From the NCBI GenBank assembly GCA_946803715.1, contig CAMPET010000124.1, positions 146,298 through 188,172 on the forward strand: a stretch of 41,875 nucleotides of DNA, read 5' to 3'. Shown piece by piece: positions 16,932-19,592 of the stretch. The stretch's first letter is position 1; every line of letters begins with the position of its first letter. A program made the translations under genes and the position numbers. The notes beneath the pieces were generated by a model. It made no database searches, had not been told where the DNA came from, and was given only the letters and a program-made list of their open reading frames with translations. This DNA comes from Beroe ovata (taxonomy: Eukaryota; Ctenophora; Nuda; Beroida; Beroidae).

Positions 16932-19592
16932 TTACATCTTATCCAGCCTACAAATTGGATTGTCATAGATCATATTCAAATTAACTTTCGGACCTATCAA
17001 TTCTCTGATATTATTGATGCCGTATTTTATCATTGTAGGGCGTTCTAATGAGAGTCCCCATGCAATGACATTCACATCATTCGGTATACCCATTGGCAAA
17101 AGCATCTCAGGTCTGAACATTCCTGAGTTCCCAATTTCCACCCACTTCTTGAGTCCAGGGTGGTAAGAGAATATTTCCATACTTGGTTCAGTGTATGGAT
17201 TGTATGCAGGCTTGAACTTCAATTTTTCGAGACCAAGCTTCTTGAAAAATGCACTAAGGACACCAATAAGATGACCAAGAGTAAGGTTCCTATCAGCAAC
17301 GACCCCTTCAATTTGGTGAAATTCTGCTAAATGAGTGGCATCAAGGGTCTCATTACGGAACACTCGATCAACACTGAAAAAATATGTAACTGCTAATTGT
17401 ACACCTATAGTAAGTTCATATGATCTATATCACAATTTGGTTGTTTGTTTGTTTGTCCCGTTGTCCGTCACGAAATGCACGTGCTGATTTTGAAGTTAAA
17501 GTGCGCATTGCCATGGACATTGGACACGTTCTATTACTGTAATAGTGAACTGGGAGCTCATTTTCGGTGATACTACTTTGATAACGTTGTAGTTTTCGTT
17601 GATGGAATGAATGCAAGTAGGTTCTGATTCGAGCAACAGTCAAATTTTCTCTTGAGTTGAAAATTTGTTGCAAAGTTGTTGCTTTTGCTCCGAAGTTATT
17701 CTTTTTGACTCATGGTAAAATACGATGTTATTTTCAATAACAATACACTATGCAAATTGAAACGATTAACGAAAGTCGGATAACCGGCCAAGCACCATTT
17801 TCTGTGCTTATTCGAAGAAATGGCCGAATTGTGATCAAGTCCTTCATAAATTCATTGGTTCAAATAAGTACGTTGGATTTTGATTACAGGTCATGTTGAG
17901 CTGTCGTTCTCAAGTAGCGTCCTGTTGTCTTTCCAAAGGGTAGTGTCTCACGTCCACTTGGCGGGTTTTCTAGTCTTCACATAATTCATATTATCTTCAC
18001 ATTCTTGATAAAAAAGGGTGCCGATTAATTAAAACAATAAGGAATGAATCACAAACCTGAACATTTTTACTGGTTTGAATTCTTTCTCTTGTGCTAACAG
18101 ATAAAGCATTCTTGCACTAACAGCAGTTGTATGAGTCCTAAGAATATTCTTCTGTGCCTCATTGATCTTCCAATCATAATTATAGCCAGTTGATCCAAAA
18201 CCACCATTTTCATGAGTTTCTTTTACTCTTTCAAGATAGTCTTGTGGAAACTTAGAGGAACAGGTCATTTCAGGATCAGAGATAAAGAAGGTATCATGTG
18301 CATCTCGAGCTGGATGCTGCTGAGGCTGGAAAAGGGCATCAAAGTTCCAGAAACCATTTTCAACAAACCTATTTGTAGGCATTTCACTGAATCCCATGTC
18401 AAGGAAGATTCTTCTGAATTCTGATTTGACTTTCATAAGTGGGTGCAAATATCCACTTGCTATTGGAGCACCTTTAGCTGAGAAATTGTATTCTTTGAAT
18501 GTTTTATCCTTCCAAGAATTGTCTTGTAGCATTTCAAATGTTAGGTCAGCTTCAGGCTTTTCAATTGCAGTCCTAAATCCAGAACCTTTTGACACTAAAT
18601 AATATTTCGTGATTACAGGATTTATCAATTTTCTTTTCTTCAAATCCTGGACCTGTTTATCACTGACATGGGTTTTATCATTGACAGATGACAATGCCTC
18701 TTTGACAATATCAGATACATTTTCAACCTTTCTGAAAACTGTTGGGCCATTTTCATGTTTCTTGTCAATACTGATCCATCCTAGACTCATTGCTTTACTG
18801 AACCCAATTTTGGCATTGGCACCTTTCATCAATTCCTTTTGTAAAATCCCATCTTTTGGAATTGAATTGTACAAACTGTATTCATAGCTACCATTGGCCA
18901 TAAAAAGCTTCCCTTCATCAGACAATTCCCAGGTAGATGTCTGCTGCTGACTCACCTGGGATATTTTTGTGCAGTCATTTACTATACTCAATAAAGATAT
19001 TTAGAAATGACAATCTACAGCCAATTATACATCAAACTGTCAAGCAAGGGGTCAATAGGTTGAAAGGTATGTATGTCAATGAATGTACCTCAACATAATT
19101 CCCAGGTAATGCAATTAAACTTTTTATTGCACCAACAACTTTTTGATGATCTAAAGTTCTATCTTTAGCAAATTTTAGGGAATCAATCTCTTTAAATACA
19201 GCAAGCTCATCAAGTATAAGTTGATCCAAAGGCATATCTGAAAGGCAAAGAAATCAGTAAAGTAATGTGAATTGAGCTTATGAGTCAACAAATCCAATAA
19301 AAATCTAAAAAATGACAACAAGAGTACCTGTGTTAGTATTGGAGGGAACAGATACTTGGGTAGAGGACGTTTTTGAATCAGCAGAACAGGTTTTTATATG
19401 ATTGAACCATCTACTAACATTAATCTTATTCCTATACACTCCTGGATATGTATCCTTAATTTTATTATATAATGCGAAGTCACCATATGAATAAGCAAAT
19501 CCAGATATATAGCTTCTCTGTGAAAGAAAATTGTCAAGTTCCCCCGGATCCATTGCTAAGAGCTCCAACTCTGTACAATCAGCTTGTTTCAT
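16932..19592 (-). CDS. FARSA: Phenylalanyl-tRNA synthetase alpha subunit with N-terminal GST-C-like domain
   Basis: Cytosolic PheRS alpha, the catalytic half of the alpha2-beta2 enzyme that charges tRNA-Phe. Four exons join in frame: 19328-19592, 19089-19237, 18057-18955 and 16932-17373, about 584 residues (human FARSA 508). From residue 90 it aligns end to end with [43 protein letters not shown] [45 protein letters not shown] (motif 2) and [14 protein letters not shown] (motif 3). The first 88 residues are extra. [26 protein letters not shown] and [11 protein letters not shown] match the truncated GST-C domain of eEF1B subunits and CysRS. The join is AACACAG-donor to CAG-acceptor AT-ATG, giving TNTD then the old Met. 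If the 90-base intron is retained, a 95-residue GST-only protein results. An in-frame stop just upstream fixes the start. The 17374-18056 intron shows nothing else. PheRS identity is certain; the fusion rests on one splice junction. Confidence 0.93.

Follow-up and report, generated by a model that had tools for sequence, protein, structure and literature searches.

The FARSA locus and its predicted first exon

The window, meaning the whole stretch of 41,875 nucleotides of Beroe ovata DNA that was analyzed, carries on its minus strand a gene for PheRS alpha (FARSA), ahead of which an exon encoding a GST-C domain lies in frame. The features of this locus, from 5′ to 3′ in window coordinates, are the following:

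19611..19633, minus strand: possible start of the 5′ leader, with an acceptor-like AG just before 19633 (by eye)
19328..19592, minus strand: exon 1 of the predicted GST-C::FARSA, coding from the ATG at 19592; 88 residues, comprising the GST-C domain and an S/T/N-rich linker
19377..19544, minus strand: GST-C domain proper, about residues 17-72
19238..19327, minus strand: intron 1, 90 bases, GT-AG, phase 1
19089..19237, minus strand: exon 2, opening with AT-ATG, where FARSA proper begins; old start codon at 19233-19235
18057..18955, minus strand: exon 3 of FARSA (spliced frame and Pfam)
16932..17373, minus strand: exon 4 of FARSA, including the stop codon (spliced frame and Pfam)

Spliced from 19592 to 16932, the four predicted exons form a single open frame of 584 aa. 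On re-reading, the phase-1 donor at the 3′ end of exon 1 (CAG/GTACTC, the slash marking the exon end), the 90-base gap and the AT-ATG acceptor exon were correct in both coordinates and frame, and the basic observation of the preliminary description, a GST-C domain placed ahead of FARSA, is confirmed. Only its figure of about 75 residues for the first exon has to be amended, the added part being 88 residues long and the domain itself shorter. The reading frame of exon 1 is intact over 101 codons; upstream of the ATG the same exon contains an in-frame stop, about 16 residues lie ahead of the domain, and the linker that separates it from FARSA is also about 16 residues long. By eye, an upstream ORF of four codons (ATG GCT TCT TGA, 19622-19611) is found before the ATG. 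Retention of intron 1 would bring in an in-frame stop at 19305-19307 and yield a product of 95 residues, the size given for it previously. The old FARSA start methionine is likewise kept, as had been described, two bases inside the acceptor exon.

From the acceptor exon onward the protein is indeed FARSA, and the enzyme is complete. Human PheRS alpha (3L4G) aligns from residue 104 of the fused protein to its end (E = 2.6e-202, 677 bits), while the match to another PheRS alpha, 8S8B, begins at residue 89. In the 584-aa protein, the Pfam matches to DBD1, DBD3 and the class II core exceed their cut-offs, and that to DBD2 falls slightly short (25.3 vs 25.9 bits). The fused protein is like 3L4G and 8S8B in all PheRS alpha domains and in the class II core, whereas its GST-C part is matched in neither. 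When FARSA alone was searched against the genome as a whole (exon-wise, E up to 0.1), the three matches returned were exons of this very locus; the gene is single-copy, being the only PheRS alpha gene found in the genome. As for relatives from animals, none was found in viral contigs (0/5 pattern matches confirmed), and the scan of prokaryote genome contigs with FARSA gave 2/14 confirmed, both bacterial MAGs at 29-30% identity and neither of them an animal relative. A search of the genome for COX1 gave no match.

The claim that the first exon encodes a GST-C domain holds under several comparisons. An HMM made of three human domains (eEF1B2, CARS1, and EEF1E1) gives exon 1 a score of 43.8 bits, as compared to 13.4 bits for the best of 5000 shuffles (0/5000 as good). 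Profile comparison, on which the preliminary description had let its proposal depend, also returned a match: hhalign of the human set against exon 1 combined with its relative on contig C87 (see below) reached 98.1%. With phmmer, the best match in the PDB was eEF1B2 (5dqs_D, E = 1.2e-4) and the second best AIMP3/EEF1E1 (E = 2.6e-3). Exon 1 keeps all seven invariant columns of a seven-sequence alignment of which it is itself a member. Pfam reported nothing above cut-off for the GST-C part, its only match being Arc1p_N_like (E = 0.029, 15.1 bits vs a cut-off of 27), and an AlphaFold model of exon 1 alone, made without an alignment, had a pLDDT of 42 and is worthless. Judged by sequence and within exon 1, the domain is a truncated GST-C that has no thioredoxin-like GST-N half. 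It is of the same truncated type as the N-terminal GST-C of eEF1B2 (residues 1-88, 5DQS), which also comes without the thioredoxin-like half; in eEF1B2, however, it sits on a GEF, whereas here it would sit on a tRNA synthetase.

GST-C domains elsewhere in the genome

The genome was searched for GST-C with six single-protein queries, and the human profile was also run over 4077 ORFs; these came from 97,609 bases made up of the window plus eight loci, one of which overlaps it. In this ORF scan the FARSA exon (43.8 bits), a frame on contig C87 (39.2 bits), and AlaRS (33.3 bits) ranked highest, followed by one half of the CARS1 domain (17.6 bits) and the halves of eEF1G (14.5 and 11.1 bits). A short ORF of locus L005 (12.2 bits, E = 0.038) was taken as chance, and a candidate on contig C20 (E = 2.5) was dropped at 0.0 bits, with 1025/5000 shuffles at least as good. 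The exon query missed the GST-C of CARS1, which is split by an intron; since intron-split domains can escape in this way, the carriers listed are to be taken as a minimum. The features outside the FARSA gene that matter here are:

L007:2777-5902 (contig C253), minus strand: GST-C-bearing AlaRS, a single exon with one unbroken frame of 1041 aa
L004:4036-4251 (contig C87), plus strand: orphan frame, 71 codons long, encoding a GST-C (39.4 bits to the human HMM)
L034:4580-6075 (contig C56), plus strand: tandem eEF1B exchange-factor genes, about 230 bases apart, their C-terminal parts near-identical
L037:1462-1920 (contig C46), plus strand: possible AIMP3/EEF1E1-like gene, intron-split, E = 0.0106
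Window 19849-19865 and C253:96098-96114, both minus strand: core of a dispersed element, upstream of FARSA and of the AlaRS GST-C

The AlaRS was the second GST-C place recovered by the genome search with exon 1 (E = 0.013). Pfam recognizes tRNA-synt_2c (696 bits) together with tRNA_SAD and DHHA1 in this frame, and in the PDB the protein is closest to the cytoplasmic enzyme (4xem_A, E = 1.3e-216). Its N-terminal GST-C scores 39.7 bits with the human HMM (0/5000 shuffles as good) and finds its best solved-structure match in eEF1B2 (5dqs_D, E = 7.4e-4). Read from its sequence, this is a cytosolic-type AlaRS that carries an N-terminal GST-C in the same frame. As the frame contains no intron, the AlaRS fusion is independent of splice prediction, the choice of start codon aside; moreover, as an instance from the same genome of a class II synthetase preceded by a GST-C, it makes the FARSA fusion credible. 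To our knowledge, a single-exon AlaRS with an N-terminal GST-C is undescribed. The FARSA and AlaRS domains match each other weakly in single-sequence genome searches (E = 0.013 and 0.058), and their differences at codon positions 1, 2, and 3 (27, 30, and 31 of 55) give no signal of constraint.

Of the sequences found in the genome, the orphan frame on contig C87 is most closely related to the FARSA exon (E = 5.0e-6); in the genome search with exon 1, the match at this place (E = 6.2e-7) extends past a TAG on its upstream side. Among solved structures, the orphan frame matches AIMP3 best. It runs into a phase-1 donor that scores high (10.05 bits), and a stop follows two codons later; inspected by eye, the opposite strand carries a run of reading frames resembling the exons of another gene. 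No synthetase or other known splice partner was recognized by eye among the ORFs of the next 12 kb. Over 60 codons, the FARSA exon and the C87 frame differ at 25, 24, and 37 sites in codon positions 1, 2, and 3, respectively, and such a third-position excess is the pattern expected of constraint at the protein level. This excess, the frame unbroken over 101 codons and the retention of all seven invariant columns speak against the idea that exon 1 is an artefact or a dead exon, i.e., a misassembly or a decayed GST-C copy that never enters the mRNA; although a repeat-bearing stretch upstream of the exon would suit that idea, we consider it very improbable.

The stretch in question contains an inverted repeat at 20032-20165 of the window, with 33-base arms that are 97% complementary and with direct repeats nearby, and resembles a small, palindromic mobile element. 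Nearer to the gene, the upstream regions of FARSA and AlaRS share an element of roughly 60 bases (5e-8), whose core precedes the ATG of exon 1 by 257 bases and that of the AlaRS GST-C by 260, in the same orientation. Genome-wide (77.8 Mb), the core occurs at 194 sites with up to one mismatch, as compared to a single site for the control. Eight of the 194 are exact, the FARSA and AlaRS loci among them, which is weak evidence since the pattern was drawn from these two loci. The element could act as a promoter element or, as a mobile repeat, have contributed to moving the exon. A common origin of the two upstream regions was considered and rejected: the element is dispersed, and the matches between element and start codon are weak and scattered. 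Further upstream of FARSA, on the same strand, protein-like frames are seen at 20511-20810 and 21701-22060 (both minus strand), with no Pfam match at E 0.01.

CARS1 of this genome (contig C86) bears an N-terminal GST-C, as human CARS1 does; the domain is split by an intron and scores 31.6 bits when joined. In cytosolic CysRS this short domain likewise precedes a synthetase, but CysRS is a class I enzyme with an unrelated core, whereas the carriers considered here, PheRS alpha and AlaRS, belong to class II. In both eEF1B exchange-factor genes found, no GST-C was detected within the 7 kb searched around the pair on contig C56; the arrangement of this pair looks like either a trans-spliced pair or alternative exons. 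A gene for eEF1G is present on contig C40, its EF1G domain appearing in two pieces of 34 and 31 bits (cut-off 23.3) and its GST halves scoring weakly. Finally, the possible AIMP3-like gene on contig C46 suggests that a multisynthetase scaffold protein may be present.

Proposed joining of exon 1 to FARSA

According to the gene model, the 90-base intron 1 would be removed by ordinary cis-splicing, resulting in a protein composed of GST-C, linker and FARSA. We hold with good confidence that a GST-C::FARSA fusion is real; more specifically, the locus probably encodes, by cis-splicing over the 90-base intron, a PheRS alpha with an N-terminal GST-C of the eEF1B2/CysRS type. The fit of frame and phase between exons 1 and 2, the parallel of AlaRS and the gap devoid of a poly(A) hexamer favour the join, while the weakness of the donor, the place of the acceptor and the four-codon upstream ORF speak against it. 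Scored with a generic matrix, the donor of intron 1 reaches 4.05 bits and is the weakest of the five scored, the remaining FARSA donors having 5.21 and 5.53 bits, that of CARS1 4.45 bits and that of C87 10.05 bits; furthermore, two GTs within exon 1 outscore it (6.0 and 5.18 bits). As for the gap, none of the seven poly(A) hexamers searched for occurs in its 90 bases, so that nothing was seen there that would end a separate GST-C transcript. Because poly(A) signals can be degenerate, this lowers the claim of an operon without excluding it.

The main alternative, which we regard as unlikely, is that there is no fusion at all. Exon 1 would then be a separate GST-C gene encoding 95 residues and FARSA a plain gene with its 5′ end at 19237, this end arising either through trans-splicing of a spliced leader or because transcription begins within the 90-base gap. 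The acceptor, two bases ahead of the old FARSA ATG, is placed as in trans-splicing, and the same position would suit an internal start; the weak donor of intron 1 and the GST-C frame of 71 codons on C87, which stands apart, point in this direction as well. In other genes, too, acceptor-like AGs are seen by eye (uncounted) shortly before the ATG, while some genes have none. The eEF1B pair on C56 also resembles a trans-spliced pair: about 230 bases separate the genes, and an AATAAA is followed there by an acceptor that lies 4 bases ahead of the second ATG. By contrast, the gap at the FARSA locus holds none of the seven poly(A) hexamers, the frame and phase of exons 1 and 2 fit, and AlaRS bears its GST-C in one frame. 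Spliced leaders are known, in the available part of one report, from the glass sponge Aphrocallistes vastus (A. vastus), where they were found on 4% of long reads (PMC10282587), which is relevant if the present genome is alike; according to the accessible text of one review, however, there are no reports of operons from hexactinellids (PMC7986045).

In a mixed form, intermediate between the two readings, the one acceptor would serve both cis-splicing, with the fusion as its product, and trans-splicing, which would give plain FARSA. It is quite possible that fused and unfused FARSA products occur side by side.

An acceptor-like AG a few bases before the start codon was observed at window position 31708 (minus strand, TFIIE beta-like), at window position 19235 (minus strand, FARSA), and at position 5839 of L007 (minus strand, AlaRS). 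Such AGs suggest spliced-leader trans-splicing or short 5′ leader introns.

Possible partner of the domain and relation to known complexes

CysRS, GluRS-E, MetRS, and ValRS are all class I synthetases. In the available extracts of the literature, GST domains are assigned to exactly these four families by AARS Online (PMC11580382), and GST-like domains are described on MetRS, GluRS/GluProRS, and ValRS within complexes (PMC4394549), on MetRS and GluRS or GlnRS in Plasmodium (PMC2813244; PMC4828885), and on CysRS, MetRS, ValRS, and GluRS in human or Arabidopsis (PMC7564348). The word FARSA is absent from the available part of a survey of human cGST folds (PMC10452860). Within the accessible portions of the open-licence literature, a GST-C was found on neither PheRS alpha nor AlaRS, in line with the earlier statement that its author knew of no such PheRS alpha; within that scope, a known docking module would here be found on new carriers. 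The nearest system is the vertebrate ValRS-eEF1 complex (eEF1H), in which a synthetase is tied to eEF1B via a GST-like domain (PMC4394549, in part). The GST-like domain of ValRS is, however, complete, spanning residues 1-213 of the AlphaFold model (accessible text of PMC10452860), whereas here only GST-C is present, and on other enzymes.

PheRS is an alpha2-beta2 enzyme, and a fused alpha subunit would therefore bring two GST-C domains to each holoenzyme. The preliminary description explained the arrangement by exon capture, which would have put a docking domain ahead of an intact FARSA and tied PheRS to a multisynthetase or eEF1 complex. This interpretation is partly supported. The domain, its place in frame ahead of an intact FARSA that keeps the old start methionine, and the parallel of AlaRS support it, but capture is only one possible route, and the closest relative, on C87, stands apart from any recognized synthetase. 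Regarding the tether, the closest solved homologue, eEF1B2, points to eEF1G rather than to the multisynthetase complex. 5DQS consists of eEF1B2 residues 1-88 and eEF1G residues 1-218 (PMC12701074; PMC7160314; both in part), and since the FARSA and AlaRS domains match eEF1B2 best (that of C87 matching AIMP3), eEF1G would be the likeliest partner of both synthetases. A link between such a domain and eEF1G also appears in the accessible text of PMC9166799, where a human CARS1 splice variant with an insertion at the N-terminal GST domain is said to inhibit EEF1G and a paper is cited whose title refers to an elongation factor-associating domain.

If the fusion is real, the evidence leaves eEF1G evenly poised as the partner of the GST-C domain. 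Docking would take place on the GST-fold domain of eEF1G, as for eEF1B2 1-88 in 5DQS, and two domains per PheRS would favour a firm attachment. Phe-tRNA(Phe) would thereby be placed near eEF1A, where it might be handed over or channelled. Alternatively, a real fusion could have another partner, namely the multisynthetase complex through a GST of the AIMP3 or MetRS type, or its own kind, or the domain could serve stability only. We find this group of possibilities doubtful: among solved structures, the FARSA and AlaRS domains both match eEF1B2 best, which itself binds eEF1G, even though AIMP3 comes second for the FARSA exon and first for its C87 relative, the gene on C46 (E = 0.0106) may encode an AIMP3-like protein, and the human multisynthetase complex is held by GST-GST contacts (PMC4394549; PMC10452860; available parts).

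Were both fusions true, at least two class II synthetases with a GST-C would exist in one genome, and the docking module would be movable to unrelated synthetases. Tethered and untethered PheRS and AlaRS would then provide a natural test of eEF1 tethering, relevant to the long-standing question whether synthetases channel charged tRNA to eEF1A. Docking modules of this type keep the translation elongation complex assembled, and their presence on AlaRS, and apparently on PheRS alpha, hints at a rewired protein-making machinery. As a tentative and rather speculative proposal, the GST-C plug might have shifted from the eEF1B exchange factor to synthetases (CysRS, AlaRS, PheRS alpha, and the orphan exon), so that eEF1G would hold tRNA-charging enzymes in a complex distinct from both the multisynthetase and the ValRS-eEF1 complexes, with PheRS perhaps docked or free through competing use of one splice acceptor. 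By eye, the two eEF1B genes on C56 open with leucine-zipper-like segments.
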